Source of the DNA: a virus
DNA: 37,640 nt
Direction: 5' to 3' (one strand)
IMG/VR virus record: IMGVR_UViG_3300045996_000465
Location: 1 to 37,640 of that record
Shown: positions 912 to 37,348 of the stretch, piece after piece
How the letters are laid out: every line of letters starts with the position of its first letter
How positions within the stretch are numbered: position 1 is the stretch's first letter
Made by a program: the position numbers and the translations under genes
The notes under the pieces: generated by a model
The model's input: the letters and a program-made list of their open reading frames with translations, nothing else
The model's database searches: none
Told to the model about the DNA's origin: nothing

Positions 912-918
912 ACCGCAA

Positions 919-957: not shown

Positions 958-1010
958 AGGGTGTTTCGCGCTACCGTTCGTCTACCGTTTGTGGAGGGGT
1001 GAGGTTTTCA

Positions 1011-1933: not shown

Positions 1934-1953
1934 TGGTAACCTCGTGACAACTA

Positions 1954-1969
1954 CTGTACTCCTGTACAG
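1954..1969. promoter_or_regulatory. CTGTAC-N4-GTACAG operator
   Basis: Perfect 6-bp inverted repeat with a 4-bp spacer, 21 bases upstream of the XRE gene ending at 1643. Its sequence is unlike the CCGAATTCGG operators, fitting a separate regulator, most simply autoregulation. Confidence 0.5.
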
Positions 1970-2201
1970 CCAAATCCGGTAGTTCGCTTGAATCCTACGC
2001 GACCTAGCGGCTTCGTCCTACATACCAGAATCATCCGCTGGTGTATCTGCGCGCAGATTTGAGACGGCTCAGCCCGTCGTTCTCCACCCTATACCAAACG
2101 GTCCACTGAGCAGATTTGGGGACTGTCAGTTCTCCTAATACTGATGTACTAGCGTCCCACTACGCCGTTCATCCACTGGTGCACAAATTTGCGTTCGACC
2201 T
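1970..2201. other. Non-coding control region
   Basis: No convincing gene is seen between the XRE gene (start 1933) and the first rightward early gene (2283). The stretch holds a CCGGTAG operator half-site (1976-1982) and two degenerate GCAGATTTG motifs (about 2053 and 2111) resembling the start of the dispersed repeat family. Beyond 2201 come the operators and promoter listed separately. Confidence 0.5.
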
Positions 2202-2213
2202 ACCGAATACGGT
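2202..2213. promoter_or_regulatory. Operator ACCGAATACGGT
   Basis: Near-palindrome (ACCG/CGGT) ending at the first base of the -35 box of the rightward early promoter. It is closely related to the ACCGAATTCGG site at 947-957. Confidence 0.5.
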
Positions 2214-2240
2214 TGACACGCGCTCCGAATTCGGTAGACT
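2213..2240 (+). promoter_or_regulatory. Rightward early promoter with internal operator
   Basis: TTGACA (2213-2218), a 16-bp spacer and TAGACT (2235-2240), 43 bases before the first early gene. The spacer contains the palindrome CCGAATTCGG (2225-2234) that also flanks the leftward promoter, so repressor binding would occlude RNA polymerase. Confidence 0.65.
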
Positions 2241-2282
2241 GCCCTCTATCGGCCCTAACGAGCCAAACACTGGAGAGACAGC

Positions 2283-2513
2283 ATGGCGAACACAAACCGC
2301 ACACCGGAGCCGGACGCCCTTCGCTTTGCAGCCGAGTGGCTGCGTCAGTACGACGACTCTCACGATGGCGGCGCGCAATCCGAAGTGGCCCGGAGCGTGG
2401 CTGACTGGCTCGACGCACAGGCCGACGCCAAGGAACTGCGTGATGCCGCGCGTGAACACGGCGTGCCGGTGGGCGGGCTTCGCGCTCGTCTCGCCAAGGC
2501 TGCGGGAGCCTGA
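2283..2513 (+). CDS. Small early protein, first in rightward operon
   Basis: 76 aa from ATG 2283 with GGAG seven bases upstream. Helical and charged; it contains ALRFAAEWLRQYDDSHDGG and a C-terminal segment ending GLRARLAKAAGA. From memory it resembles a small conserved phage protein with an ALR-AADWL motif of unknown function. It is the first gene after the repressible promoter, so it is made immediately after infection or induction; host take-over or anti-defence functions are common for such genes but nothing specific can be shown. Confidence 0.75.
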   Translation: MANTNRTPEPDALRFAAEWLRQYDDSHDGGAQSEVARSVADWLDAQADAKELRDAAREHGVPVGGLRARLAKAAGA

Positions 2514-2514
2514 C

Positions 2515-2916
2515 ATGACCTACCAACCCCACCAAAGCGAAGACGGAACACTAAAACCAGTCGGGGGAGATTTGGGCTCGTCCATCTTGACGGCGGAGAG
2601 TCGTGCCGAGGCTCCCAGTGCGCTCCGCGATGCAGCCTACAACCAGATCGACCGCTTCCTGCGGAACAACCTCGATGACGCGGATTACGCCGACTACTCG
2701 CAGGCGCTGGACTTCATCTTCACCACTGGTGTCGGCCAATCACATGCGGCACAAGACGACGCCTACGCCGAAGGCCGCAAGGACCAGCAGGAAGAAGACT
2801 CCGAACTCCTGCGGTGGGCCTACAGCAAGTTGCATCACGTCTCTTTCACCAAGCAAGACGACGCGCTAATGCAAGACCGTCTGAAGCTGCTGCTTGAGCA
2901 CGGAATCTCGGCGTGA
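2515..2916 (+). CDS. Early protein with repeat-encoded N-terminus
   Basis: 133 aa; ATG 2515 follows the previous stop by one base, with GGGAG upstream. The N-terminus (MTYQPHQSEDGT, then VGGDLGSSILTAESRAE) is partly encoded by the first forward repeat. The next gene starts with a similar M-x-QPHQSE...VGG leader, but the bodies differ. Residues 45-133 are helical and acidic (NNLDDADYADYSQALDF). The inverted repeat 2915-2962 begins at the stop codon. No function is recognised. Confidence 0.75.
   Translation: MTYQPHQSEDGTLKPVGGDLGSSILTAESRAEAPSALRDAAYNQIDRFLRNNLDDADYADYSQALDFIFTTGVGQSHAAQDDAYAEGRKDQQEEDSELLRWAYSKLHHVSFTKQDDALMQDRLKLLLEHGISA
2569..2602 (+). repeat. Dispersed repeat, forward copy 1
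   Basis: The 31 bases 2572-2602 are identical to 7211-7241. Core: TTGGGCTCGTCC ... GACGGCGGAGAGTC. Read in frame it gives LGSSILTAES in the protein from 2515. It pairs in inverted orientation with 2915-2962. Confidence 0.9.
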
Positions 2917-2962
2917 CTCTCCGTCATCCGAAGCGAAGCAGCCAAATAAACAAGGAGCAGCC
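2915..2962 (-). repeat. Dispersed repeat, inverted copy a
   Basis: Starts in the stop codon of the gene ending at 2916 (GACTCTCCG) and continues through AAGCAGCCAAATAAACAAGG to the start of the next gene. It supplies the ribosome-binding site (AAGGAG) for the ATG at 2963. Confidence 0.8.
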
Positions 2963-3217
2963 ATGTCCCAACCCCACCAGAGTGAAGAAGCAACGATGAA
3001 GACCGTTGGGGGAGAAACAGCCAGGAACAGCTCTGTTCACTCGGGCTCGTTCGACAAGGGGGCGGAGAGTCTTGCGGAGGTTTGGTGCAGGGTTGGCCGC
3101 TATGTCGCGCTGGAAAAGCGTGCTGGTTGGTCTGGAGACTGGATGCGGGCTCAACGCATCGCTGCTCACGTTCGCCGCGCCAGCAGCCTTTACGGCTTTA
3201 CTTCAAACCCTTACTAG
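2963..3217 (+). CDS. Early protein with repeat-encoded N-terminus
   Basis: 84 aa from ATG 2963 with AAGGAG seven bases upstream. The leader MSQPHQSEEATMKTVGGE matches the start of the preceding gene product. The repeat-encoded GAESLAEVW motif follows at about residue 36, then a basic, aromatic C-terminal half (VGRYVALEKRAGWSGDWMR). The two neighbouring leaders look like a duplicated 5' module fused to unrelated bodies. No function is recognised. Confidence 0.7.
   Translation: MSQPHQSEEATMKTVGGETARNSSVHSGSFDKGAESLAEVWCRVGRYVALEKRAGWSGDWMRAQRIAAHVRRASSLYGFTSNPY
3014..3071 (+). repeat. Dispersed repeat, forward copy 2
   Basis: Contains GAAACAGCC, TTCACTCGGGCTCGT and GGGCGGAGAGTC in the same order as the copy before xis, with a diverged middle. 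It is in frame in the 2963 gene. The inverted partner is at 3442-3483. Confidence 0.75.
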
Positions 3218-3225
3218 GAGCCGAT

Positions 3226-3465
3226 GTGGACTCCAGGATCACCATCCGCTACGAGAGCGTCGGCCGCTGCTTCTGGCACATCGGCTGCACCGCCCAGCGC
3301 CACTCCCCGCCCATGAAGGTAGGGGCAGACGACATGGAGAAGCGGCGCACCGTCATTCAGTGCGCCGCCTGCGGCGAGGCTGGCTACTACCCGCATGGCT
3401 CTGTAGGGGACGTGTGTTGCGAGGCGCTCCCCTCCATGAAAGATTCTCCGCCGTCCGGCGAGTGA
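3226..3465 (+). CDS. Small cysteine-rich early protein
   Basis: 79 aa from GTG 3226 with AGGAG five bases upstream; an ATG two bases earlier is in another frame. Cysteines in CFWHIGC, CAACGEAGYY and VCCEA suggest a zinc-binding fold. The C-terminal MKDSPPSGE is encoded by an inverted repeat copy that runs through the stop codon. Function unknown. Confidence 0.65.
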   Translation: MDSRITIRYESVGRCFWHIGCTAQRHSPPMKVGADDMEKRRTVIQCAACGEAGYYPHGSVGDVCCEALPSMKDSPPSGE

Positions 3466-3483
3466 CCAACAGGTGAAAAGAGG
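3442..3483 (-). repeat. Dispersed repeat, inverted copy b
   Basis: GATTCTCCGCCGTCCGGCGAG followed by GGTGAAAAGAGG, overlapping the last codons and stop of the 3226 gene. The CTC(C)GCC-GTCC-GGCGAG portion can fold into a hairpin even though its sequence differs from the other copies. Confidence 0.8.
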
Positions 3484-3489
3484 ACTCCC

Positions 3490-3798
3490 ATGCAAACCAT
3501 CCTCCGCGACCAGCGCATCCCTGATTGCCTCGGAGCGCATGAGAACTACTCCGTACTGACAGACCAGGCAGACGAAGCAGACATCCGCCGCCGAGCCGAA
3601 GAAGACGCAGGCGTCAGGACTCGGCCAGCTCGCAAGGAGATTGCCGCTCTGGCAACGAACCTCACCGAGCAAGAGGTGTGCGCCCTGATTTCCTCTGTGA
3701 TCGGGGTCATCAACAAATGCGGCTGGAGCCATACGCAGGAAGCGATGACGGCTATGGAGTACCTGCTGGACGCGCATTCAACTTTGGAGCAAGCATGA
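3490..3798 (+). CDS. Hypothetical early protein
   Basis: 102 aa from ATG 3490 with AGGAC upstream. Highly charged N-terminal half (QADEADIRRRAEEDAG), then a predicted helical region LTEQEVCALISSVIGVINKC. Opens a run of seven tightly packed small genes (3490-4795) whose starts and stops mostly overlap as ATGA or GTGA, implying translational coupling. No homology is recognised. Confidence 0.7.
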   Translation: MQTILRDQRIPDCLGAHENYSVLTDQADEADIRRRAEEDAGVRTRPARKEIAALATNLTEQEVCALISSVIGVINKCGWSHTQEAMTAMEYLLDAHSTLEQA

Positions 3799-4025
3799 CC
3801 GACAAACGATTCAGCAAGGCGCTGCTTACCGATGTGCTGACCTACCGCATCGGCTATCTGGTCAGCCTGCATAACTTCGACCTTGGCAACGGGACCGCGC
3901 AACTCAAGGCCGGCGACGTTGACCGTGCTGTTGCCTACGGCGAAATGCGGTTTTGCGAGAGCCTGCTGGAAGACCTCCACAGCGGGCAGGTGGGTCGCTG
4001 GCTTCCGTGGAAGGAGCAAGCGTGA
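3795..4025 (+). CDS. Hypothetical early protein
   Basis: 76 aa; ATG overlaps the previous stop. Starts MTDKRFSKALLTDVLTYRIG and ends WLPWKEQA; mixed hydrophobic/charged and probably a soluble helical protein. No family is recognised. Its place inside the coupled small-gene string is the main support that it is real. Confidence 0.7.
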   Translation: MTDKRFSKALLTDVLTYRIGYLVSLHNFDLGNGTAQLKAGDVDRAVAYGEMRFCESLLEDLHSGQVGRWLPWKEQA

Positions 4026-4225
4026 ACGCCCGTAACGCCCCTTTGAGGTTCGCCAGAAGGATGGGGGAACACTTCCCCTGCCCAGAGTACGCCAACCCCA
4101 TTGAAGCCCCTGCGCCGCGCTCCATGCTGGCATCGCCTTGGTTCTGGCTCTCTGGGCTGGCTTCGGTCGGGGTCTGGACGCTGATCTGGGCTGCGATTGC
4201 CTGGATGCTGGAGAACGCAAAGTGA
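4022..4225 (+). CDS. Small membrane protein
   Basis: 67 aa from GTG 4022, overlapping the previous stop as GTGA. One strong transmembrane segment near the C-terminus (FWLSGLASVGVWTLIWAAIA) follows a basic, Pro-rich N-terminal half, so the N-terminus is probably cytoplasmic. Early phage membrane proteins of this size often alter host envelope functions or exclude other phages; nothing specific is visible. Confidence 0.65.
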   Translation: MNARNAPLRFARRMGEHFPCPEYANPIEAPAPRSMLASPWFWLSGLASVGVWTLIWAAIAWMLENAK

Positions 4226-4449
4226 CCAAGGAACTGACGCCGTGGTTTCCGCCTGAAGTGAAGCCAGTACGCGATGGCATCTACCTCGCCACCGTGGATT
4301 TGCGCGAGCGCTACTACCGCTACTGGAATGGGCGCGCATGGCTGACCGGGGATTCAACCGTTCGCTGGGCCGCTGAGGAAGCTGTTTTCGGCGTCGAAAC
4401 ATCGAACCAGAGAATCCACTGGCGCGGACTCGCAAAGGAGCCGAAATGA
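4222..4449 (+). CDS. Hypothetical early protein
   Basis: 75 aa from GTG 4222 (GTGA overlap). Contains PVRDGIYLATVDLRERYYR followed by YWNGRAWLTG, a pattern like small phage proteins with a compact beta fold in which a substrate-like 'YRYWNG..W' segment recurs. No function is known. Translationally coupled to both neighbours. Confidence 0.7.
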   Translation: MTKELTPWFPPEVKPVRDGIYLATVDLRERYYRYWNGRAWLTGDSTVRWAAEEAVFGVETSNQRIHWRGLAKEPK

Positions 4450-4628
4450 ACGACGACCTCCCCTATCGCGGACCGTTGACCCAGCCCGTGGAGTTGTTCT
4501 GCAGTTCCTGCCGGGATGGAGGATGCCCCGTTCCCTACTCTTGCATCGTCCCGGCTGAACAAGTCAAGAGCATCAAGTTCCTGGCGGCTCTTACTGCTCT
4601 TCTTAGAACTACGAAAGGCCAGCCATGA
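4446..4628 (+). CDS. Small cysteine-containing early protein
   Basis: 60 aa; ATG overlaps the previous stop. LFCSSCRDGGCPVPYSC has CxxC plus two further cysteines, a likely metal site or disulfide knot, followed by a helical C-terminus. Unknown function; supported by coupling and coding context. Confidence 0.65.
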   Translation: MNDDLPYRGPLTQPVELFCSSCRDGGCPVPYSCIVPAEQVKSIKFLAALTALLRTTKGQP

Positions 4629-4795
4629 CTGACGAAAAGCTCATCGAGCTAGCGCAGGAAGCGTCGGCAGAGTGGCGCGATTACGACTACTGGAAAGAGT
4701 GCGAAACCTGTGAACGCTCAGGGCGTGCTTACGACATAGCAGGAACTCCCATCCAGTGCCCAGACTGCGATGGTGAAGGCTGGATTGAACTCTAG
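4625..4795 (+). CDS. Small DnaJ-type zinc-finger protein
   Basis: 56 aa; ATG overlaps the previous stop; the stop TAG is at 4793-4795. Two CxxCxxxG-type knuckles (CETCERSGRA and CPDCDGEGW) resemble one unit of the DnaJ central zinc finger, a fold common in small phage proteins. It probably binds zinc and contacts protein or nucleic acid. A GGAG within its stop region serves the recombinase gene that follows. Confidence 0.7.
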   Translation: MTDEKLIELAQEASAEWRDYDYWKECETCERSGRAYDIAGTPIQCPDCDGEGWIEL

Positions 4796-4803
4796 GAGAA
4801 CCC

Positions 4804-5451
4804 ATGAAGAACATCGCTACCGCTCTCGTCAAGGCGCAAAAGGCTTTTGGCCCGGCCCTGAAGACCAGCACGAACCCGCACTTCAAGAGCAAGTATGCGG
4901 ACCTTGCCGCCTGCGTGGAGGCCGTCATTGACGCCCTGAACGCCAATGGGGTGTTCCTCAGCCAACCGACCCACCTGGACGAGCACGGCGTCACCGTGGA
5001 AACCGTCTTCATTCATGAATCCGGGGAGACGTACTCCAGCGGGAAACTGCACGTTCCGGCCACCAAGCACGACGCCCAAGGGTTCGGCTCGGCATTGAGC
5101 TACGCCAGGCGCTACAGCCTCATGGCTGCGTGCGGGATCGCCCCGGAGGATGACGATGGCAACGCTGCCAGCAAGAAGCCCGCCATCCCGGCCAGCATGC
5201 GCCACACCCCAACCGATGAGGCCGTCAGCATCGCCGGGGAGCGCGCAACCATCATCCAACTGGCGGCATCCGCTGCGCGAGTGAAGTTCGGCAAGGGCGA
5301 CCAGATCGGCGCTTACGAGGAAATCTCAGGCATCACCGACGCGGACGAAAAGCTGTACCTGTGGCAAGTCCTGAAAGCGGAGTCCGCACTGCGGGCATTC
5401 ATCAAGAAGCACGCGCAAGAACTGCGCGAAACCCAAGGAGAACCAGCATGA
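4804..5451 (+). CDS. erf: ERF-family single-strand annealing protein
   Basis: 215 aa from ATG 4804. The N-terminal 120 residues carry the ERF hallmarks: KTSTNPHFKSKYADLAACVE and QGFGSALSYARRYSLMAACG near residues 20-40 and 95-115. The C-terminal region is variable and helical, as usual. ERF proteins pair complementary single strands for phage recombination and genome circularisation. The SSB-like gene downstream completes a recombination module; no exonuclease partner is visible in the window. Confidence 0.9.
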   Translation: MKNIATALVKAQKAFGPALKTSTNPHFKSKYADLAACVEAVIDALNANGVFLSQPTHLDEHGVTVETVFIHESGETYSSGKLHVPATKHDAQGFGSALSYARRYSLMAACGIAPEDDDGNAASKKPAIPASMRHTPTDEAVSIAGERATIIQLAASAARVKFGKGDQIGAYEEISGITDADEKLYLWQVLKAESALRAFIKKHAQELRETQGEPA

Positions 5452-5648
5452 ACGCAATGATCGTTGTGAAGACCAAGAACGGCTATGCCGTTGCCCCGCA
5501 TGAGGGCGACTTGCCGCCTAACTTCGTGAGCGATATGCAGATCGCCACGGCGCTGAAGAACAACTATTCCCACCGCATCAACGTCGCGGACATCATGGAA
5601 GAGTTTTTTGAGCCAGCAGAACCCGTCCAACTGAAGGAAGCAGCATGA
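5448..5648 (+). CDS. Hypothetical protein in recombination module
   Basis: 66 aa; ATG overlaps the ERF stop and the last codons overlap the next ATG. Starts MNAMIVVKTKNGYAVAPHEG and has an acidic, hydrophobic C-terminus (IMEEFFEPAEPVQ). The position between ERF and the SSB-like gene suggests a recombination or replication accessory role, without direct evidence. Confidence 0.7.
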   Translation: MNAMIVVKTKNGYAVAPHEGDLPPNFVSDMQIATALKNNYSHRINVADIMEEFFEPAEPVQLKEAA

Positions 5649-5932
5649 ATATTCAAATCACTTGGCATGGAGAGCAGTTCAACGTGGAACTGGCAAGCAA
5701 GGAGGGTGCAGAGGCTTTCTTGAGTGTGAAGGGTTGCCGCATCGTGGAGGGAACCAAGGGGCCCTTTGTAAGTTACCCGGCCACCAAGAACGCCAACACC
5801 GGCAAGTGGTGGAGCCACGCATGGGGCTCGGACAAGTTCAACGCTGCGGTGCTGGAGAAGGCGCAGGCCACCCAGCAAACCACCCCAAAGGGCAAGCAGC
5901 GCCAGGAAGCGGACGAAGACATCCCCTTCTAA
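5645..5932 (+). CDS. SSB-like protein with acidic C-terminal tip
   Basis: 95 aa; ATG overlaps the previous stop. The core (GPFVSYPATKNANTGKWW, then WGSDKFNAAVLEKA) resembles small phage single-strand-binding proteins that replace canonical SSB. The C-terminus ends DEDIPF, the acidic-hydrophobic tip used by bacterial SSB to recruit partner proteins. Together with ERF it probably protects and presents single strands for annealing. An inverted repeat copy begins four bases after the stop. Confidence 0.75.
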   Translation: MNIQITWHGEQFNVELASKEGAEAFLSVKGCRIVEGTKGPFVSYPATKNANTGKWWSHAWGSDKFNAAVLEKAQATQQTTPKGKQRQEADEDIPF

Positions 5933-5936
5933 GCCA

Positions 5937-5975
5937 GATTCTCCGTTGTCAGGAAAGACGAGCCCAAGTGAACAA
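5937..5975 (-). repeat. Dispersed repeat, inverted copy c
   Basis: GATTCTCCG ... GACGAGCCCAAGTGAACAAG, immediately downstream of the SSB-like gene. It retains the full GACGAGCCCAAGTGAA arm found in the double copy before xis. No obvious forward partner lies upstream. Confidence 0.8.
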
Positions 5976-5976
5976 G

Positions 5977-6027
5977 ATGAATCCTTCCATTCCTCTCCCC
6001 GATGATTCAGGGGGAGAACAGCCATGA
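5977..6027 (+). CDS. 16-aa mini-ORF upstream of membrane protein gene
   Basis: ATG 5977 to TGA 6025-6027; could begin at GTG 5968 (19 codons). It ends in GGEQP with its stop overlapping the ATG at 6024, so ribosomes finishing here could restart on the next gene. The product probably matters less than the coupling. The GGGGGAGAACAGCC before the next ATG recurs nearly unchanged at 6187-6199. Confidence 0.35.
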   Translation: MNPSIPLPDDSGGEQP

Positions 6028-6203
6028 CTGACTGGCTCTTTCTCACATTGACCTTCGGCATCGGCCCGGCGATGGCGCTTGGCCTGTGGCTCCTGATCCG
6101 CTGGCGCAGGCATCAAGACGACTTGGAGGCATGGGACCGCGCCCAGGCTCTGCGCCGCCAGCTACGGGAGCAGCAAGAGGAAAGAGTGGGAGAACAGCCA
6201 TGA
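6024..6203 (+). CDS. Small membrane protein
   Basis: 59 aa from ATG 6024. One N-terminal transmembrane segment (FLTLTFGIGPAMALGLWLLI) followed by a basic, helical cytoplasmic tail (RWRRHQDD ... RQLREQQEERVGEQP), a type II-like topology. The start and stop both overlap neighbours (ATGA). Function unknown. Confidence 0.6.
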   Translation: MTDWLFLTLTFGIGPAMALGLWLLIRWRRHQDDLEAWDRAQALRRQLREQQEERVGEQP

Positions 6204-6242
6204 AGGCAGATTTGGGAGCGGCCATCTGCACGGCGGAGAGTC
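6191..6242 (+). repeat. Dispersed repeat, forward copy 3
   Basis: GAACAGCC then GATTTGGGAGCGGCC ... CACGGCGGAGAGTC (core 6209-6242), 17 bases upstream of the PAPS-reductase-like gene. The partner inverted copy is at 7038-7080, so the enzyme gene is neatly bracketed. Confidence 0.85.
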
Positions 6243-6262
6243 GCGGAAAGGCTACAGCATGA
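6200..6262 (+). CDS. 20-aa leader ORF made almost wholly of the repeat
   Basis: ATG 6200 to TGA 6260-6262, coding MKADLGAAICTAESRGKATA. Both ends overlap neighbours as ATGA. It is the shared N-terminal peptide of other early proteins but ends before a body, and its stop is coupled to the start of the PAPS-reductase-like gene. Either a regulatory leader peptide or a module not yet fused to the downstream gene. Confidence 0.5.
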   Translation: MKADLGAAICTAESRGKATA

Positions 6263-7035
6263 GCGACCCATTTGTTATCGACGGGCCGACATGCATCAGC
6301 CTCTCAGGTGGCCGCACCAGCGCCTACATGCTGCGCCGCGTTCTGGACAGCAACGGGGGAACGCTGCCAAAGGAAACGGCTGTGTGCTTCGCCAACACCG
6401 GCAAGGAAGACTATCGCACTCTGCGGTTCGTGGAGGACATCGCCCATAAGTGGAAGGTGAAAATCCATTGGGTGGAGTTTCGGGACGACTCCATTGGCTT
6501 TGCAGAAGTGGAGCCGCGCAACGCCAGCGAGTCAGGTGAACCGTTCGCGGCACTGATCGCCAAGAAGAAGTTCCTGCCGAACGCGGTCATGCGCTTTTGC
6601 ACCAGCGACTTGAAGATCAAGCCGATAGAGGCGTTCATCCGCCGGTTCTACGGTTGGGGCGAGTTCGACATGCTGGTTGGCATCAGAGCCGACGAGCCGC
6701 GCAGGGTCGCGAAGATGCGCCACCTGCACCTGCCGCTGGCCATCGCCGGGGTCACGAAGCAGGACGTGTTGGCCTTCTGGAACGCCCAGCCATTCGACCT
6801 CCAGGCAGACGAGAGCAACTGCGATCTTTGCTTTCTCAAGGGACTGCCGCAGATCATGTCCGCAATCCGCAAGAAGCCGGAGCGGGCGGTGTGGTGGGCC
6901 AAGCAGGAAGGGTTGATAGGCGCTAGGTTTGCCAAGGACCGCCCAACCTACGAGCAGATGCGGGTCAACGCGATCAACCAGCAGGACGCCTTTGGCTACG
7001 ACGAGGAAGCCATTGCGTGCTTCTGCGGCGATTGA
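6259..7035 (+). CDS. PAPS-reductase-like PP-loop enzyme
   Basis: 258 aa from ATG 6259. PP-loop ATP/PAPS-binding motif SGGRTS at residues 16-21, ANTGKE at 45-50, and CTSDLK at 114-119, similar to the catalytic region of CysH-type enzymes. GIRADEPRR at 141-149 and paired cysteines (188/191 and 254/256) suggest an additional metal or redox site. Phage homologues are widespread; proposed roles include sulfur transfer to nucleic acid (DndC-like chemistry) or changing host sulfur metabolism, but none can be assigned from sequence. It sits between an inverted pair of dispersed repeats. Confidence 0.85.
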   Translation: MSDPFVIDGPTCISLSGGRTSAYMLRRVLDSNGGTLPKETAVCFANTGKEDYRTLRFVEDIAHKWKVKIHWVEFRDDSIGFAEVEPRNASESGEPFAALIAKKKFLPNAVMRFCTSDLKIKPIEAFIRRFYGWGEFDMLVGIRADEPRRVAKMRHLHLPLAIAGVTKQDVLAFWNAQPFDLQADESNCDLCFLKGLPQIMSAIRKKPERAVWWAKQEGLIGARFAKDRPTYEQMRVNAINQQDAFGYDEEAIACFCGD

Positions 7036-7037
7036 GC

Positions 7038-7080
7038 GATTCTCCGCCGTCCGAATCGTCTCCGACCAAATGAAAAAGCA
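7038..7080 (-). repeat. Dispersed repeat, inverted copy d
   Basis: GATTCTCCGCCGTCCGAATC ... ACCAAATGAAAAAGCA, two bases after the stop of the PAPS-reductase-like gene. GATTC/GAATC can close a small hairpin. Confidence 0.8.
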
Positions 7081-7132
7081 TCTCCCCTCCCCCTTCTGAC
7101 TCCCAGAGTTATCTATATAGCCTATGAGTGAC

Positions 7133-7182
7133 AAACAGCCTTCAATTCAATGTGGGCTCGTCCTCCTTCCATTCGGAGAATC
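7133..7182 (+). repeat. Dispersed repeat, forward copy 4 (non-coding)
   Basis: AAACAGCCTTCAATTCAA then GTGGGCTCGTCC and ATTCGGAGAATC, with a changed middle. The first of two tandem copies in the gap before xis/int. Confidence 0.85.
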
Positions 7183-7190
7183 TAGACAGT

Positions 7191-7241
7191 GAAACAGCCT
7201 TCTTTTTCACTTGGGCTCGTCCATCTTGACGGCGGAGAGTC
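7191..7241 (+). repeat. Dispersed repeat, forward copy 5 (longest, non-coding)
   Basis: GAAACAGCCTTCTTTTTCAC then 31 bases (7211-7241) identical to copy 1. This gives the fullest version of the element, about 50 bp. It ends 9 bases before the xis ATG and its GGAGAG could act as a distant ribosome-binding site. Confidence 0.9.
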
Positions 7242-7250
7242 TCTCTAGCC

Positions 7251-7586
7251 ATGCTCAAAGCCACCGAAGCTGCCGCGCTGCTGGGCTTGTCTGCCAGGAC
7301 CGTGTACGCTCTGGCGGAATCCGGGGCGCTGGCCTGTCACAAGTTCGGCGCTGCCGTCCGCTTCGATCCTGCCGACATAGAGGCTTACAAGCAGTCATGC
7401 CGATTACCCGCCACCACTCGGGCCGCTGGCTCTACCAGTTTGACCGCGTCATTGCCGGAACCCGCCAGCGCGCTAACCGACTACTTCCGCAAGGCTGGAC
7501 GCGAGCCCAAGCGCAAGCCTTCGACCAGCGAGAAACGGCGCGGCTCTACGAGCTTGCAACTGGTGGCGACAAGCCAGAACCCCTGA
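7251..7586 (+). CDS. xis: Excisionase-like protein
   Basis: 111 aa from ATG 7251. The first 50 residues (MLKATEAAALLGLSARTVYA, then FGAAVRFDPADIEAYKQSC) match the MerR-like helix-turn-helix of excisionase-family proteins. The remaining 60 residues overlap the integrase gene out of frame by 190 bases and look low in constraint, so only the N-terminal domain may matter. Overlap of xis and int is also seen in lambda and couples the two. It would direct integrase towards excision at the adjacent att site. Confidence 0.75.
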   Translation: MLKATEAAALLGLSARTVYALAESGALACHKFGAAVRFDPADIEAYKQSCRLPATTRAAGSTSLTASLPEPASALTDYFRKAGREPKRKPSTSEKRRGSTSLQLVATSQNP

Positions 7587-8410
7587 TTGATGACGCCGTG
7601 CTGCTCTACCTCAAACACCACGCGCCGCACCTGAAGAACTACCCGGACATCATGGGCGCGCTGGATTTGCTGCGGCCCTTCTACGAGGCCAAGCCCTTGT
7701 CTGCCCTGCCGGAAGTCGCGCAGGAGTACGCCAAGAAAGGTAAGGGGGAGGAAGGCCAAGCCCTGAAGCCTGGAACGCTCAGGAACCGGCTGGCGTACCT
7801 GCGGGCGGCTTGCCGGTGGGCATGGAAGCATCACAGCCTAGGCGAACACGACCCGGCGGAGCGGATGGTGCTGCCCAAGGTGAAGAACGCCCGTCATGTG
7901 TACCTGTCCCGCGCTCAGGCGGTTTCAGTGTTCCGGGCGATGGGGCCGAGCTGGTCAAGGGACGCGGCCAGAGTCGCCTTCTACACCGGCTGGCGGATCA
8001 ACGAGGTTCTACAGGCCACCCCGCAGGGAACCCCGGAAGGCTGGGTCTTGACCATCCCGGACACAAAAAACGGCCAACCCCGGATTGTCCCGGCGCATCG
8101 CAGGATCGTCCATTTGGTCAGGGACCACTGGCCCCCGCAGGTGACGAAGTGGACGGCCAGCAAGGCGGTCAAGAAGGCGATGGTTGCTGTGGGTCTAGGA
8201 CACGCCCGCCTGCACGATCTAAGGCACTCTGCGGCCTCTGAAATGATTAACGCAGGGGTAGACCTCTACACGGTCGGCGGGGTGCTTGGGCACAAGTCAG
8301 CAATCAGCACGGCTCGCTATGCCCACTTGGCAACGGAGCGGCTGAGGATGGCGGTTGGGAAGATCGGTGCCAAAAAGCCCCAACCTGGGCCGGAGGCGAA
8401 AGCAGCATGA
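7397..8410 (+). CDS. int: Tyrosine-recombinase integrase
   Basis: 337 aa from ATG 7397. An N-terminal arm/SAM-like domain is followed by the catalytic domain with R200 (YTGWRINEVL), K224, H273-x-x-R276 (LHDLRH), H299 (GVLGHKS) and Y308 (TARYAH), so the active site is complete. It catalyses site-specific recombination between phage and host att sites. The stop lies 15 bases from a tRNA-Lys fragment, the expected attP position. Transcribed in the same direction as the early operon. Confidence 0.95.
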   Translation: MPITRHHSGRWLYQFDRVIAGTRQRANRLLPQGWTRAQAQAFDQRETARLYELATGGDKPEPLIDDAVLLYLKHHAPHLKNYPDIMGALDLLRPFYEAKPLSALPEVAQEYAKKGKGEEGQALKPGTLRNRLAYLRAACRWAWKHHSLGEHDPAERMVLPKVKNARHVYLSRAQAVSVFRAMGPSWSRDAARVAFYTGWRINEVLQATPQGTPEGWVLTIPDTKNGQPRIVPAHRRIVHLVRDHWPPQVTKWTASKAVKKAMVAVGLGHARLHDLRHSAASEMINAGVDLYTVGGVLGHKSAISTARYAHLATERLRMAVGKIGAKKPQPGPEAKAA

Positions 8411-8425
8411 AACCACTGTTTTCGC

Positions 8426-8470
8426 TGGTAGGACGTGCAGGATTCGAACCTGCGACCAACGGATTAAAAG
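8426..8470 (-). other. attP: attP: 3' half of tRNA-Lys(UUU)
   Basis: Read on the minus strand, the segment begins at the anticodon loop (CTTTTAA), continues through a T-arm (GCAGG-TTCGAAT-CCTGC) and ends in a 3' CCA. The anticodon is UUU. The 5' half is absent: the bases before the loop do not pair with the anticodon stem. This is the usual core of a phage att site that rebuilds the host tRNA on integration. It lies directly after the integrase gene. Confidence 0.85.
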
Positions 8471-8507
8471 GACGGTACGCGATCAGTGCGCAGAGCCGTT
8501 CCCCTCT

Positions 8508-8531
8508 GTGCGCCCCTTGCTTGGGGCGCGC
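8508..8531 (+). terminator. GC-rich hairpin after int/attP
   Basis: Stem of up to 9 bp with one G-T wobble (GTGCGCCCC/GGGGCGCGC) and a TTGCTT loop, but no immediate T-run. It may end int transcription or be part of the attP arm; it also lies just ahead of the HNH gene. Confidence 0.4.
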
Positions 8532-8582
8532 TGATGAGCATGTTTTGCCTGCTCTGTGCCAAATTCTCCCAACCTGACGCCT

Positions 8583-8909
8583 ATGCCAATAAAGCCTGAG
8601 AACCGCGCCCGCTACCCAAAGGACTGGAAGGACATAGTGTCCAAGGTTAGGGAGCGAAGTGGTAACAAGTGTGAAGGCTCCCCGAACTGGCCGGAATGCC
8701 GAGCCGAGAACGGACAACCGCACCCGGCGACTGGCAGTAAGGTCGTTTTGACCACGGCCCACCTTGACCATGTACCGGAGAACTGCGACCTGACCAACCT
8801 ACGCCATTGGTGCCAGCGATGCCACCTTGTCTACGACGCCCAGCACCACGCCGAGACTGCCTATGCTACCCGTAAGGCGCAGGCGAATACGATGGAACTG
8901 CCGCTGTGA
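8583..8909 (+). CDS. HNH endonuclease-like protein
   Basis: 108 aa from ATG 8583 (a GTG at 8556 is possible; neither has a good ribosome-binding site). Basic N-terminus, cysteines at CEGSPNWPEC, then the beta-beta-alpha metal site AHLDHVPENC ... NLRHWCQRCH. It is a compact HNH nuclease of the kind found near phage termini or as a mobile element. The position next to attP suggests a recently inserted accessory gene. An inverted repeat copy follows the stop. Confidence 0.75.
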   Translation: MPIKPENRARYPKDWKDIVSKVRERSGNKCEGSPNWPECRAENGQPHPATGSKVVLTTAHLDHVPENCDLTNLRHWCQRCHLVYDAQHHAETAYATRKAQANTMELPL

Positions 8910-8919
8910 GCCCATGAAA

Positions 8920-8963
8920 GACTCTCCGCTGTCACGGAGTCAAGCAGCCAAGTAAAACAAAGG
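8920..8963 (-). repeat. Dispersed repeat, inverted copy e
   Basis: GACTCTCCGCTGTCACGGAG then AAGCAGCCAAGTAAAACAAAGGG, downstream of the HNH gene. CTCCG-ctgtca-CGGAG forms a perfect 5-bp hairpin. It may pair with the forward copies before xis, bracketing xis-int-attP-HNH. Confidence 0.8.
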
Positions 8964-8992
8964 GTGTCTAGGCATCCTTAAAGGAGAAAGAG

Positions 8993-9052
8993 ATGGAAGA
9001 CCAAAACCATAAGGCAGATGTTGAGGGGGAGCGGCATGGCAACCGCGTTTGA
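8993..9052 (+). CDS. 19-aa leader ORF before HNH-AP2 gene
   Basis: ATG 8993 with AAGGAG seven bases upstream, TGA at 9050-9052, overlapping the first codons of the next gene in another frame. Codes MEDQNHKADVEGERHGNRV; the KAD start of the repeat peptide is recognisable. The strong ribosome-binding site suggests that it is translated and may feed ribosomes to the ATG at 9036. Confidence 0.4.
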   Translation: MEDQNHKADVEGERHGNRV

Positions 9053-9581
9053 GATGGCCCTTGGAGCTGAGTATGTCCGGGAGTGCCTTGAGGAAAACGG
9101 GGGCGTCTTGTACTGGCGCTCACGCCCAAGTCACCACTTCTCGGACGCTAGGAGCGTAACTAGGTTTCAGACGAGATACGCCGGACGGCCAGCAGGTGGC
9201 CGTGATGTAAAAGGCTATTTCGTCGTATGGGTCTCAATTGGCTCTCAGAAGTACCGGCTATTCGCTCATCGCGTAGTGTGGATGCTGCACCACGGCGACT
9301 GGCCGAGCCAGGTCATCGACCACATCAACCGGGACAAGGCCGATAACCGCATAGAAAATTTGCGCGATATTCAGCCGGACGCCAACCTTAGAAACAACGG
9401 TAATCCCAGAGGGACCGGACTGCTGGGGGCGTACCGAGCCAGGGGCAAGAAATTCTATTCTCAAGTAAGTCGCGGCGGTCGCAGCAAGAGACTTGGCTCA
9501 TTCGACACAGCCAAAGAAGCCCATGAAGCTTTTGTCCGCGCAACCACAGACAATCAAGGAGACGCTTTACATGGGAAATGA
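9036..9581 (+). CDS. HNH homing endonuclease with AP2 domain
   Basis: 181 aa from ATG 9036 with GGGGAG upstream. Residues about 80-130 form the HNH motif (HRVVWMLHHGDWPSQVIDHI, then NRIENLRDIQPDANLRNN). The C-terminal 45 residues (GAYRARGKKFYSQV, RLGSFDTAKEAHEAF) form an AP2-type DNA-binding domain. Such HNH-AP2 proteins are free-standing mobile endonucleases common in phage genomes. The last bases overlap the next gene. Confidence 0.85.
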   Translation: MATAFEMALGAEYVRECLEENGGVLYWRSRPSHHFSDARSVTRFQTRYAGRPAGGRDVKGYFVVWVSIGSQKYRLFAHRVVWMLHHGDWPSQVIDHINRDKADNRIENLRDIQPDANLRNNGNPRGTGLLGAYRARGKKFYSQVSRGGRSKRLGSFDTAKEAHEAFVRATTDNQGDALHGK

Positions 9582-9786
9582 ATCGACCCAAGCAGTGCCC
9601 ACAGGGACGGCGGAGAGTCTCACCACCCGCGAGGCTCTAGAACTGGTGCGCGACTGCTCATCGCAGGAATGGCAGCAGCCGGATGGGAAGCGCATGGCTG
9701 CGACTGACAACCAAGGTCGGCGCTTCTGGTTCATCACAGAGGATGTGATGCAGGCCGTTCGGGAAGTGCTGGAGAAGAAGCCATGA
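9571..9786 (+). CDS. Small early protein with repeat-encoded N-terminus
   Basis: 71 aa from ATG 9571, overlapping the HNH-AP2 stop. The N-terminus contains GTAESLTTREAL from forward repeat copy 6, then an acidic helical body (FWFITEDVMQAVREVLEKKP). No family is recognised. The end overlaps the next gene (ATGA). Confidence 0.65.
   Translation: MGNESTQAVPTGTAESLTTREALELVRDCSSQEWQQPDGKRMAATDNQGRRFWFITEDVMQAVREVLEKKP
9606..9619 (+). repeat. Dispersed repeat, forward copy 6 (short)
   Basis: Only GACGGCGGAGAGTC is kept, in the same reading frame as in the other genes (TAES). The partner inverted copy is at 10006-10050. Confidence 0.7.
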
Positions 9787-10046
9787 GCTGCGACTACTAC
9801 CTGACTTGCCACGCCTGCAAGAAGGGTCTGCATGTGGCGCAGGACGGCCTGAGCGGCTTCACGTTCTACAGTGGCGAGCCCGAAACCATGCGGAAGCTGC
9901 GCGACTTCCTAGCCGAACACAACGGTCAATCGCACGCTCTGGAATTGGCGACAGAACATCGGTTTGACGACTTGCTGGATCGTGGCTACGTCGATCTCGA
10001 TGAAGGACTCTCCGCCCAATCAAGCGGACGAGCCCGAGTGAAATAG
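9783..10046 (+). CDS. Conserved small phage protein
   Basis: 87 aa; ATG overlaps the previous stop. Starts MSCDYYLTCHACKKGLHVAQ, with a CxxC pair, then DGLSGFTFYSGEPETMRKLR; from memory similar short proteins with a DYYL-CxxC start occur in other phages, function unknown. The C-terminal GLSAQSSGRARVK is encoded by an inverted repeat copy that reads through the stop. Confidence 0.7.
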   Translation: MSCDYYLTCHACKKGLHVAQDGLSGFTFYSGEPETMRKLRDFLAEHNGQSHALELATEHRFDDLLDRGYVDLDEGLSAQSSGRARVK

Positions 10047-10050
10047 AAGG
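10006..10050 (-). repeat. Dispersed repeat, inverted copy f
   Basis: GACTCTCCGCCCAATCAAGC then GGACGAGCCCGAGTGAAATAGAAGG. TCCGC...GCGGA can pair. It covers the end of the 9783 gene. The following CTGCC...GGCAG hairpin (10060-10084) recurs after copy g. Confidence 0.85.
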
Positions 10051-10059
10051 TATCCCGGT

Positions 10060-10110
10060 ATCCTGCCTTTACCAATATTGGCAGTATATCTATCAGATAT
10101 GGAGAGAGAG
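10060..10110 (+). promoter_or_regulatory. Leader region shared with the next gene but one
   Basis: A CTGCC...GGCAG hairpin, an AT-rich stretch, then ATGGAGAGAGAG directly before the ATG at 10111. The 10574-10658 leader has the same order: TATCCTGCC...GGGCAG, AT-rich bases, ATGGAGAGAG, ATGGAA. The GGAGAGAG block is the ribosome-binding site in both. Confidence 0.5.
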
Positions 10111-10527
10111 ATGGAACCCAAAGCCCATGATGCAGATTTGACCTCGGCTCCTCTGACGGCGGAGAATCTTGCGGAGGCCGAGGGAGCTGCGTTGGACGCC
10201 CTTGTCGCTCAGCTTGAAGGGGTGACCGGTCTAGTCGAGAAGGACGGGCGCATGTGCCATGTGCGCGAGTGGGACCCGGAGGGGTGCGCGTGGCGCGACA
10301 ACATGCAGGAATGGGTGATGTGGGTTGACTACGCGCCCAGCCAGCGATGGGACCACGGCGGGCCAATTATCGAGCGCGCACGGGTTCAGATCGGCTTCAC
10401 GGGCGATGGTCGCGGCTGGCAAGCGGCGGTGAACCCGGATGCTTCGGCGGATTGGTGTATCCCGTGGCATGACGGGTCGACTCCGTTGATCGCCGCCATG
10501 CGTGCATTTGTCGCCAGCAAACGATGA
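10111..10527 (+). CDS. Early protein with repeat-encoded N-terminus
   Basis: 138 aa from ATG 10111 with GGAGAGAGAG upstream. The N-terminus contains HDADLTSAPLTAENLAEAEG from forward copy 7. The body has several tryptophans (VREWDPEGCAWRDNMQEWVM) and ends near WCIPWHDGSTPLIAAMRAFV, similar in character to small phage proteins predicted to act on an amino-acid-like or nucleotide substrate, but no family is assigned. Bracketed by forward copy 7 and inverted copy g. Confidence 0.7.
   Translation: MEPKAHDADLTSAPLTAENLAEAEGAALDALVAQLEGVTGLVEKDGRMCHVREWDPEGCAWRDNMQEWVMWVDYAPSQRWDHGGPIIERARVQIGFTGDGRGWQAAVNPDASADWCIPWHDGSTPLIAAMRAFVASKR
10135..10168 (+). repeat. Dispersed repeat, forward copy 7
   Basis: GATTTGACCTCGGCTCC...CTGACGGCGGAGAATC, in frame as DLTSAPLTAEN in the 10111 gene. 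The partner is 10530-10573. Confidence 0.8.
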
Positions 10528-10529
10528 GA

Positions 10530-10573
10530 GATTCTCCGCTGCCCGGAGTGAAGCAGCCAAGTGAAAAAGAAGG
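10530..10573 (-). repeat. Dispersed repeat, inverted copy g
   Basis: GATTCTCCGCTGCCCGGAG then AAGCAGCCAAGTGAAAAAGAAGG, three bases after the 10527 stop. CTCCG-ctgcc-CGGAG forms a hairpin. The AAGTGAAAAAGAAGG arm exactly matches the reverse complement of forward copy 5. Confidence 0.85.
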
Positions 10574-10622
10574 ATGTTTGGTTATCCTGCCTCTACTCGT
10601 ATAGGGCAGTACAACCATCCTT

Positions 10623-10642
10623 ACCGTTTACCGGTAAACGGT
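10623..10642. promoter_or_regulatory. Perfect 20-bp palindrome (operator candidate)
   Basis: ACCGTTTACC/GGTAAACGGT with no spacer, 16 bases before the start of the 10659 gene. The half-site resembles the CTACCGTT sites at 971-990, suggesting a repressor site, though an RNA hairpin is also possible. Confidence 0.6.
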
Positions 10643-10658
10643 CAACCAATGGAGAGAG

Positions 10659-10940
10659 ATGGAATTACCTGAACTGCCGGCGCCTGACATTTGGGTGCGC
10701 GAGGACTTTGGCCTTGGAGACTCAACGGTCCATCAAGGTTACACCGCCGACCAGATGCGAGCCTATGGGGAGCAATGCGCTCTTGCAGAGAGGGGGAAAA
10801 TCCTCGCCGCGCTGAAGGCCGAAATTGACCACTGCGCCACCAACGACGTGAGGCTGGTGCCTGTGTTCGGTCGCGCTCAGGGCGTTCTGGGCGTTCCGTC
10901 CAGCTACATTGAAGCGGTCATCGAAAGGTTTTCGGCTTAG
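10659..10940 (+). CDS. Small conserved phage protein, 'YTADQMRAY' type
   Basis: 93 aa from ATG 10659 with GGAGAG upstream. VHQGYTADQMRAYGEQC is a motif seen widely near the N-terminus of small phage and prophage proteins of unknown role, here followed by a helix and then YIEAVIERFSA at the end. Expression may be controlled by the 20-bp palindrome just upstream. The last gene in the early-type run before the hydrolase. Confidence 0.7.
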   Translation: MELPELPAPDIWVREDFGLGDSTVHQGYTADQMRAYGEQCALAERGKILAALKAEIDHCATNDVRLVPVFGRAQGVLGVPSSYIEAVIERFSA

Positions 10941-10988
10941 TTAGCGGGCCTGCATGACCCTATCCAGCGATTTCCCTACCGTGTGGCG

Positions 10989-11017
10989 TTGACAACCTCA
11001 GCCGTAGAGCCTCAAAT
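10989..11017 (+). promoter_or_regulatory. Promoter for the secreted hydrolase
   Basis: TTGACA (10989-10994), a 17-bp spacer and TCAAAT (11012-11017). Transcription would start at about the ATG at 11024, giving a leaderless message; no Shine-Dalgarno sequence is visible upstream of that ATG. This fits an independently expressed 'moron' gene. Confidence 0.5.
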
Positions 11018-11023
11018 TACCTG

Positions 11024-11866
11024 ATGCGAAAACTTCTTCTCATCCTGGCCCTGCTGGCGTCTGCATGTGTCCAAGCCCGCCAGCCAGATGGAAAGTACGT
11101 CTATCGCCAAGGAACAGGAAACGACCGCGAATACTCGCTGGACGTTTACCTTCCCGACGACGACGGCAAACCCCGACCCGTGCTGATTCTGTTTCACGGA
11201 GGGGGATGGACGAGCCACGATAAAGGGATGTTCGCCGCGTTTGCATCACGCATCACACGATTCACCCGCATGGTGGTTATCAGCGCGAACTACCCCTTGA
11301 CCGGAAACCCGCAGGATGGAGTGGAAGCTGCCAGAGGGGTCCATTGCTGGGTGCGGTCCCACGCGCTGGAGTTTCGGATTGACCGCGACTATATCGCCTT
11401 GGGCGGCGCTTCGGCTGGCGGGCAGTTGGCCGCAGCGGCGGGACAGGTTGCGAAGTCGAACGCCCCTGAGTGCGATGGTTTGCGCGTTCGCAAGCCGGGC
11501 GCGCTGGTGCTGCTCAATCCCGCTGTTGATCTGAGTGCTTGGAGCTGGTACACGCCCGAACTAAGCGCGGTCAACCCGATGGAGATGGTCCGCGACTCGC
11601 TCCCGGCAACGCTGCTTCTCAACGGTACATCCGATGCGATAACCCCTGTCGCTACGGCTCGCGCATTCCGAGCCAAGGCTTTAGGGGCGGGAGCCGTTAT
11701 GGTGAAGGTCGTGGAGTACGAGGGACGGCCTCACAGCTTCTGGAAAGAAGTGCAGAACGGCGACTTACGCAGGACGGTGTGGCAGACAGTCCATTTTCTG
11801 TCTGGGCTGGGATGGCCCATTGCCACGCGAGAGACTACGATGGAGCAAGATGATGGAAGCAGGTAA
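11024..11866 (+). CDS. Secreted or lipid-anchored alpha/beta hydrolase
   Basis: 280 aa from ATG 11024. MRKLLLILALLASACVQA is a signal peptide with a possible lipobox ending at C15. The fold shows oxyanion motif HGGGW (58-62), nucleophile S130 in GASAG, D204 (GTSDAITP) and H237 (GRPHSFW), a complete esterase triad of the carbohydrate-ester/lipase type. It should act in the periplasm or outer membrane. It is not a usual phage gene and has its own promoter; deacetylation of surface polysaccharide or another lysogenic-conversion role is a reasonable guess. Its end overlaps the next gene. Confidence 0.8.
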   Translation: MRKLLLILALLASACVQARQPDGKYVYRQGTGNDREYSLDVYLPDDDGKPRPVLILFHGGGWTSHDKGMFAAFASRITRFTRMVVISANYPLTGNPQDGVEAARGVHCWVRSHALEFRIDRDYIALGGASAGGQLAAAAGQVAKSNAPECDGLRVRKPGALVLLNPAVDLSAWSWYTPELSAVNPMEMVRDSLPATLLLNGTSDAITPVATARAFRAKALGAGAVMVKVVEYEGRPHSFWKEVQNGDLRRTVWQTVHFLSGLGWPIATRETTMEQDDGSR

Positions 11867-12056
11867 TGGAAATTTGGGCTCGTCCAGCGGCACGGCGGAG
11901 AATCTTGCCGAGCCTGCTTTTGAGGCTTTCAAAGAGTCCGGCGAGTGCCCAGACTGCGGCGACGAAGACCCACACCCTGGCCTGTACTACGCGGCGTGCT
12001 GCGGGCGGCAATTCTGCTGGGATTGCTACTGGCGCAAGCACGAAAAGTTCACCTAG
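11853..12056 (+). CDS. Small zinc-ribbon-like protein with repeat-encoded N-terminus
   Basis: 67 aa from ATG 11853 (11850 also possible) with GGAG upstream, overlapping the hydrolase end. GNGNLGSSSGTAENLAEPAF comes from forward copy 8. The body has CPDCGDEDPHPG, AACCGRQFC and CYWRKH, a zinc-ribbon pattern with about six cysteines. No function is known. The last plus-strand gene; it converges with the late operon. Confidence 0.65.
   Translation: MEAGNGNLGSSSGTAENLAEPAFEAFKESGECPDCGDEDPHPGLYYAACCGRQFCWDCYWRKHEKFT
11871..11904 (+). repeat. Dispersed repeat, forward copy 8
   Basis: AATTTGGGCTCGTCC...CACGGCGGAGAATC, in frame as in copies 1, 3 and 7. No inverted partner is seen downstream, where the converging late operon begins. 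Confidence 0.85.
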
Positions 12057-12201
12057 TCTGCATTGCATCCATCCCCATGCAGACGTTAGCGATGGCCCAG
12101 CAAACAAAGGCGACGGCCATCCAAGGGCGGTCAAGCGGGATGAAGGTATATCCGGCCCAGACGTAGAGAGCTGCCGTAACGACAAGGATTGGCAGGCTCA
12201 T
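12049..12201 (-). CDS. Small two-helix membrane protein
   Basis: 50 aa from ATG 12201, stop at 12049-12051, overlapping the end of the converging plus-strand gene by 8 bases. Two hydrophobic segments (LPILVVTAALYVWAGY and WMAVAFVCWAIANVCMG) are separated by a short polar turn. It follows the metallophosphoesterase gene as the probable last gene of the late operon. The ribosome-binding site is weak. Function unknown. Confidence 0.5.
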   Translation of the reverse strand: MSLPILVVTAALYVWAGYTFIPLDRPWMAVAFVCWAIANVCMGMDAMQTR

Positions 12202-12244
12202 AACGTATACCTACATGGAACGGGCGTTCTGTTCACTTTTACGC

Positions 12245-36539: not shown

Positions 36540-36791
36540 TCACGCCAGCCTCCAAATCCGCCAGCCCTGCCGGTCAACCTTGCGGATGGCGAACTTCTTT
36601 TCAGGTCTGCGGACCTTGAACTGCTGGGCGGCTTTGAAGTCCTTCATCTCAGGAGTCATGGTGGATTGACCGGGCTGGAGCTTGTCCAGGGTCTTTGTCC
36701 ACTCCGTCAAGGGGTTGCGAGCTGCGCCACCCTTGCCACGGTTGTCTGAATCAGGGACAGGGATGCCCTCTTCTATGGTGTACGTCGTCAC
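36540..36791 (-). CDS. Small conserved phage protein
   Basis: 83 aa from GTG 36791, overlapping the NinG stop as GTGA. LTEWTKTLDKLQPGQSTMT followed by FKVRRPEKKFAIRKVDRQGW and RIWRLA matches, from memory, a widespread phage family with a ...KFA-RKV...-RIWR ending and unknown function. Small beta-rich fold expected. Confidence 0.7.
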   Translation of the reverse strand: MTTYTIEEGIPVPDSDNRGKGGAARNPLTEWTKTLDKLQPGQSTMTPEMKDFKAAQQFKVRRPEKKFAIRKVDRQGWRIWRLA

Positions 36792-37348
36792 TCTTGTTCC
36801 TTCTCTAGCTGTTTGAGCTTGGCTTTGTAGGTTGCGCGGATGGCTATTAGTTCTTCGCGGGTCCACTTGTGGGGGGTGTTGTCAGCCTCTAGGGCTTCGA
36901 CGGCTTCAAGCCCAATCCGCTGGATGAGGCCGATTCGATAGTCAACCGCATTCCCTGACTTCCACTGGTTGTCGTGCTTGGATTGGGCGTGACAGTTGTT
37001 TTCGTTGAAGCGGAGGTGTGAAGCGCTTCCGACAGATCGGTAATGGCCAGCATCCACACCATTGCCGCTCCAGTCCAGCACGCGACCACTAGAGATGCAC
37101 CGATGGCCAGCTTGACGATCTCGCTCGCGGACATAGGCGTTAAAGGCATGCTGGGCCTCCTTAATCAGTTGGGGGATCGTCTTGATGGCTTCCCTGCGCT
37201 CCCGGAATGCTTCCCGCTCCTTAGTCTTGTCTGCCTTCAGCTTTCGCATGGCGCACCGCTGGGAACAGACGGTGGCAAAGGAGCTGCGCGGGATGAACTC
37301 CCGTGGGCACATGGCGCAGACCTTGGGGCGAAGCTGGATGGAGAGCAT
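36788..37348 (-). CDS. ninG: NinG recombination protein
   Basis: 186 aa from ATG 37348. Zinc knuckles CAMCPREFIPRS/VCSQRC at 12-33, then EAQHAFNAYVRERDRQAGHR and CISSGRVLDWSGNGVDAGHY with the HNH-like centre RFNENNCHAQSKHDNQWKSG, matching lambda NinG (Rap). It cleaves or resolves recombination intermediates. Next to NinB as in lambda. Confidence 0.9.
   Translation of the reverse strand: MLSIQLRPKVCAMCPREFIPRSSFATVCSQRCAMRKLKADKTKEREAFRERREAIKTIPQLIKEAQHAFNAYVRERDRQAGHRCISSGRVLDWSGNGVDAGHYRSVGSASHLRFNENNCHAQSKHDNQWKSGNAVDYRIGLIQRIGLEAVEALEADNTPHKWTREELIAIRATYKAKLKQLEKEQE

Follow-up and report, generated by a model that had tools for sequence, protein, structure and literature searches.

An inverted repeat family at the borders of exchangeable accessory genes in a small lineage of mosaic phages

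Introduction

In the virus contig IMGVR_UViG_3300045996_000465 of IMG/VR, all 37,640 nt of which are referred to here as the window, a degenerate element of ~31 to 54 bp lies in forward orientation at the starts of accessory genes and in inverted orientation at their ends. The question raised by this locus is why single genes or short gene sets, termed cargo below, should be bracketed in this way, and a first-pass annotation had offered two answers: a cassette-exchange system that shuffles small accessory genes, or a set of RNA-pairing sites around each cistron. Comparison with six related contigs leads us to favor the first in modified form, namely that the repeats serve as seams in the DNA at which gene modules are exchanged, probably by means of phage annealing recombinases, a reading to which we give a probability of about two in three.

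Results

The profile used to find the element was made from copies in the window and the six other contigs, and its matches total 66 across these seven mosaic phage genomes. Fifteen are in the window, all within the plus-strand early region at 2.5–11.9 kb, and every one of the eight forward and seven inverted sites described in the first-pass annotation is present, with small shifts in coordinates. The identity of 2572–2602 and 7211–7241 across 31 bases also stands, as do five clean forward–inverted pairs, with the copies at 5937, 7134, and 11864 having no partner in the window. In the window, 13 sites match the 11-nt core GGCGGAGARTC with up to one mismatch, where 1.84 would be expected, and none of 100 shuffles attained 13. 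Read 5' to 3' toward the gene, the consensus consists of TTTCAYTTGGGCTCGTCC, a short variable stretch, and GACGGCGGAGARTC, often followed by TTGCCGAGGC at gene starts or TTTCATCG at gene ends. The middle part takes several forms (GGGCTCGTCC, GACCTCGGCT, GGTAGTGCCT, GACCGTTCCC, and others), several of them found in both orientations. Among the variants, TTTCAYTTGG and GGGCTCGTCC are common; the outer GAAACAGCC portion differs from slot to slot. CGGAGA-R-TC is almost invariant across copies, an invariance that is in part the product of profile construction and seed choice. In the relatives, minus-strand genes are bracketed as well (G002 at 13850, G003 at 4001, and G006 at 404), indicating that the orientation of the element tracks the gene rather than the genome, and placement relative to gene ends is not random.

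The clearest view of what happens between the repeats comes from slot 5. The forward element that opens it, AAGGCAGATTTGGGAGCGGCCATCTGCACGGCGGAGAGTC, is identical in four phages (G000, G002, G003, and G006), and the block that closes it (window 7038–7183) is 94–99% identical in G002, G003, and G004 and is shared with G006 up to the end of that contig. Between them, the window and G006 have a PAPS-reductase-like gene, G002 has a gene for a C5-cytosine methylase, and G003 has an orphan of ~80 codons. In slot 6, four integrases (window, G002, G003, and G004) that are 24–30% identical or barely alignable stand behind one near-identical block. A leader homologous to that at 2515 precedes different genes in G002, G005, and G006, the one in G005 being weakly Mom-like at a score under the Pfam cut-off, and in G006 the slot 2 leader (window 2963) is joined to another gene. 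The order of the slots is collinear among the phages, which argues against free transposition. These comparisons, which amount to the swap check that the first-pass annotation had called for, show that whatever cargo a forward and an inverted copy enclose is replaced as a unit, with repeats and outer flanks kept and homology stopping at the gene-facing repeat ends. The same genes were not seen without the repeats inside the lineage for the slots examined; elsewhere, the NinX and PAPS reductase families occur without the repeat.

The positions at which homology breaks were also counted. Of 160 distinct breakpoints in six early regions, 35 lie no more than 15 bp from a gene-facing element end, compared with 2.5 expected on shifted positions and a maximum of 12 in 2000 shifts, so that no shift attained the observed number. 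All 35 are right ends at forward copies or left ends at inverted copies.

Besides marking these borders, the copies carry signals for translation. Forward copies had been placed at gene starts and inverted ones at gene ends, which holds, but the forward copies are not simply positioned before genes: most are inside an open frame, with the nearest usable ATG ~14–37 codons upstream. Nearly all gene-start copies with an upstream ATG read in a single frame (...DLGSSxxTAESLxE...), and the leader either continues into the cargo as a fusion or terminates a few codons on, overlapping the cargo start, usually as ATGA (window 6195, G002, G005, and G006). In the inverted copies, stop codons fall either ahead of the core, at -5, -7, or -1, or inside the element, at +32, +33, or +38. 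With a translatable leader in the start copy and stops in the end copy, an inserted gene should be both translated and terminated. Start and end copies have similar information content, which is hardly lower at third codon positions, implying that the constraint is mainly on DNA, and conservation as a leader peptide was rejected on the same two grounds.

Two sites in the window bear possible traces of the exchange mechanism. The gene at 3490–3798 fuses two frames that flank a cassette in G003 and G006, and the fusion, near 3530–3540 at a shared 12 bp (CCTCGGAGCGCA), is a short-homology event. At ~9022–9590, an HNH_3 gene splits a forward element that is uninterrupted in G003 and G004, in what looks like an intronless homing insertion; because of this gene, the match at 9601–9619 covers the core half only. 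Recombination proteins are encoded in the window (ERF and NinG/Rap), in G003 (Sak), and in G006 (YqaJ exonuclease). Small HNH or HNH-like genes, some assigned by Pfam or PHROGs and others by eye, crowd the early regions (window 8583–8909 and 9022–9590; G002 18168–18805; G003 10199–10735 and 11648–12103; G006 5759–6439; oriented coordinates).

To define how widely the element is distributed, several collections were searched. An exact-pattern scan of IMG/VR recovered the six other contigs, all of metagenome records 3300045996 and 3300044648, and other patterns, as well as one lineage-specific gene used as a query, returned only the same six. The element was found neither in INPHARED phages, in near and distant searches, nor in PLSDB plasmids, and the seven GTDB matches, each confined to a single place and all in unrelated phyla, appear to be due to chance. 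Eighteen other IMG/VR relatives, reached through the window's terminase or ERF, had core counts that were not family-like; nine of these, when scanned with the profile, yielded a single weak match (E = 0.028) and no obvious inverted families of different sequence. As far as these collections show, the repeat family therefore belongs to a single small lineage of phages, in which it is spread across mosaic genomes.

The features of the window are collected in Table 1. Directly behind the integrase, 8425–8475 resembles the 3' end of a tRNA-Lys gene and is a probable attachment site, with no complete tRNA reported by ARAGORN. The accessory region also holds, at 11024–11866, an alpha/beta-hydrolase gene (esterase-like, Abhydrolase_3) with an apparent signal peptide.

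Table 1. Repeat copies, cargo genes, and candidate recombination genes of the window
Feature	Coordinates	Strand	Support
Slot 1 cargo, 133-aa orphan; leader MTYQPHQSEDGTLKPVGGDLGSSILTAESRAEA fused in frame	2515..2916	+	
Forward (N-type) element at slot 1 gene start	2569..2602	+	profile, 32.9 bits
Inverted (C-type) element; stop codon of slot 1 gene at offset -1	2915..2957	-	profile match
Forward element, slot 2; leader MSQPHQSEEATMKTVGGE (leader at 2963)	3024..3071	+	profile match
Inverted element	3442..3479	-	profile match
Fused gene, 5' part of one gene and body of another; join CCTCGGAGCGCA (12 bp)	3490..3798	+	
ERF-family single-strand annealing protein, candidate enzyme	4804..5451	+	Pfam PF04404, E=1.3e-24
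Inverted element behind gene ending at 5932	5937..5983	-	profile match
Forward element, slot 5; leader MKADLGAAICTAESRGKATA (then stop) overlaps cargo start (ATGA)	6195..6242	+	profile match
Slot 5 cargo, PAPS-reductase-like protein	6259..7035	+	
Inverted element closing slot 5	7038..7084	-	profile match
Degenerate forward element (F') ahead of integrase slot	7134..7183	+	profile match at 7134-7168
Second forward element	7192..7241	+	profile, 45.6 bits (top score)
Slot 6 cargo, tyrosine integrase	7397..8410	+	Pfam PF00589
HNH endonuclease, final gene ahead of inverted element at 8920	8583..8909	+	phrog_1571, E=1e-26
Inverted element	8920..8968	-	profile match
HNH_3 homing-type endonuclease gene inside a forward element	9022..9590	+	Pfam PF13392, E=9e-16
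Slot 7 cargo, two small orphans (9571-9786 and 9783-10046)	9571..10046	+	
Right half (core) of interrupted forward element	9601..9619	+	profile match
Inverted element, read through as C-terminus of upstream gene	10006..10054	-	profile match
Slot 8 cargo, NinX-like protein with N-terminal leader	10111..10527	+	Pfam PF10765, E=8e-17
Forward element, slot 8	10120..10168	+	profile match
Inverted element	10530..10578	-	profile match
Forward element without partner in window	11864..11904	+	profile match
NinG/Rap junction endonuclease, possible recombination helper	36788..37348	-	phrog_171, E=3e-80

Discussion

The data presented here suggest a model in which each accessory slot would be a fixed intergenic linker, carrying an inverted copy where the previous gene ends and a forward copy where the next one starts. 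Exchange would take place during co-infection or with resident prophages through short-homology annealing by the phage recombinases (ERF in the window, Sak in G003, and the YqaJ exonuclease in G006, together with NinG/Rap), and it may be started by breaks from the HNH endonucleases that crowd the region, making these genes possible drivers of exchange. Annealing at the repeats is favored because of the 12-bp fusion, the HNH insertion, the recombination proteins encoded by the phages themselves, and the precedent of Rad52-like phage recombinases, including Erf, which act efficiently on diverged sequences, drive mosaic formation experimentally, and are assisted by Orf and Rap (PMC3945230).

Several points weigh against this model. 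Exchange based on annealing needs no inverted-repeat symmetry, which would indeed favor harmful inversions, and the elements are just 31–54 bp long and often 70–85% alike. The model accounts neither for the reverse-complement relation between start and end copies nor for what keeps the copies alike. As the element is itself a conserved island, the clustering of breakpoints is partly built in, a circularity from which slots with long near-identical outer flanks are free. G001 and G002 are near-identical across 12.9 kb, and the sample thus amounts to about six independent phages, drawn, besides the window, from two metagenomes. Finally, the seam role is shown by comparison, and the enzyme we only infer.

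The unexplained inverted sameness of starts and ends is the main reason for retaining a dedicated enzyme among the explanations. One such possibility, tentative and in our estimation unlikely, is a phage-borne, integron-like plug-in platform in which an enzyme acting on the CGGAGA-R-TC core, for instance an HNH endonuclease or a recombinase, exchanges individual accessory genes between inverted repeats with a second role as translational leader and stop, allowing rapid swapping of DNA-modification genes and integrases. Equally doubtful, if not slightly more so, is a cassette system in which a site-specific recombinase or transposase of phage or host recognizes the repeat and moves forward–gene–inverted units in the manner of integrons or cargo bounded by terminal inverted repeats. 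The symmetry, the near-invariant core common to both ends, the precise gene-side boundaries, and the variant middle blocks present in both orientations would all fit such a system, but against it stand the collinear slots and the proteins scanned, which hold no common recombinase or transposase apart from unrelated integrases and include no cognate transposase (the scan did not cover every gene, and the host was not identified). At outer element ends, moreover, only 6 breakpoints were counted against 2.4 expected, a weak excess equaled or surpassed in 67 of 2000 shifts, so there is no clear transposon edge. The description of the copies as true terminal inverted repeats, in the transposon sense, is not supported by these breakpoints or by the proteins scanned. 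Of the cassette-exchange proposal we retain exchange at the repeats; a dedicated enzyme need not be invoked, since a general annealing recombinase suffices.

The likeness to integron gene cassettes is that single genes are exchanged as units beside a fixed recombination sequence. Unlike integrons, however, the phages have repeats at both cargo ends and a fixed slot order, and no attC pair (RYYYAAC ... GTTRRRY within 30–110 nt) was found on either strand of the window. The only integrase found in the window is a phage tyrosine integrase, as assigned by Pfam, with the IntI-specific domain being outside the scan. Several integron attC-like sites (GCCTAACGTTCGAGCTAA ... GTTAGGC or GTTGAGC) were observed at ~60–3830 of another record, L203 (IMGVR_UViG_3300044626_000445), whose phage terminase is 78% identical to that of the window; this may be a prophage beside, or carrying, integron cassettes.

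A mainly regulatory role, in which start copies act as a translational leader and end copies as a stop or 3' element, or the repeats act as RNA-pairing sites, and swapping is incidental, is improbable. It draws on the constant leader frame, the ATGA coupling, the stops in end copies, and the ability of intergenic inverted–forward pairs to fold, but copies pair no better with their own partner or neighbor than with a random copy of the same genome: the fraction of random pairings at least as stable was 0.30 for own pairs and 0.84 for adjacent pairs, contrary to the proposal that each cistron is surrounded by RNA-pairing sites. Individual elements show no self-folding (mean z of -0.2) and no Rfam match at the gathering threshold. 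Neither promoters nor terminators are in excess in 2200–12300 (2 promoter-like sites versus 2.2 expected, considering the sigma-70 consensus only, and 9 terminator-like sites versus 9.2). That third codon positions are so little relaxed also speaks against this role, which would leave both the sequence shared by starts and ends and the homology breaks there unaccounted for. A methylation site, suggested by the GARTC core, was rejected as well, since GANTC shows no depletion in the window, with 126 sites for an expected 138. A history of ordinary mosaicism, made by illegitimate recombination together with selection and with the repeats as unrelated hitch-hiking sequence, is very improbable: P22-like temperate phages are mosaic in general and the minus-strand head genes of the window (portal, head closure Hc3, and terminase) are P22-like, but breaks cluster at repeat ends far beyond shifted controls and the gene-side polarity is strict.

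The seam model has parallels in known phage systems. The promoter early stem-loops (PeSLs) of T4-type phages are reported to be short intergenic repeats that lie in a hypervariable part of the early region and mediate the shuffling of gene modules among related phages (Arbiol 2010; Comeau 2014; both as cited in PMC4503421 and PMC3950731), and here, likewise, shared intergenic sequence lies at the borders of shuffled modules. In those accounts, a PeSL combines a promoter with a stem-loop, whereas the present repeat overlaps coding sequence, lacks an excess of promoters or terminators, and occupies the start and end of each cargo in opposite orientation. The start-associated SAS/ESAS repeats of cluster K mycobacteriophages are similarly dispersed at the starts of several gene families, largely in one lineage, and have a proposed translational role (PMC3203893). 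The present element is likewise tied to gene starts across unrelated gene families, but the inverted repeats of ESAS stand together upstream of one start (PMC3203893), while here the two arms lie apart, on either side of the gene, at its start and at its end; the 13-bp SAS GGGATAGGAGCCC, which precedes start codons, had no matches with up to two mismatches. In a terminase relative, L200 (G008), direct repeats around CCCTCAAGGAGTG at apparent gene starts (~36019–36620) resemble such start-associated repeats. A further parallel is found in the lambdoid temperate phage mosaics made by Rad52-like recombinases, in which module borders coincide with shared, often diverged sequence (PMC3945230); annealing recombinases are encoded here as well (ERF in the window, with NinG/Rap, and Sak in G003), but lambdoid borders are ordinary shared sequence, while the many borders here reuse one repeat family, which stands in both orientations. 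Prophages in which every gene is flanked by repeats were looked for in the literature, with nothing usable returned. The repeats are thus a new version of the known phage linker-sequence idea represented by PeSL and SAS/ESAS, unusual in the inverted bracketing of single genes and in the built-in start and stop signals.

Phage mosaicism is commonly put down to rare random joins or to homology between shared genes. Here, one repeat family serves many gene borders and both cargo ends, and as it carries signals for the start and stop of translation, a swapped gene should be expressed at once. The identified cargo includes DNA-modification-type genes (cytosine methylase, PAPS-reductase-like, and weakly Mom-like) and integrases, functions that are plausibly under fast selection by host defense and attachment site. 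The lineage provides a natural test system for single-gene exchange in phages, and its repeat a short search motif for further members.

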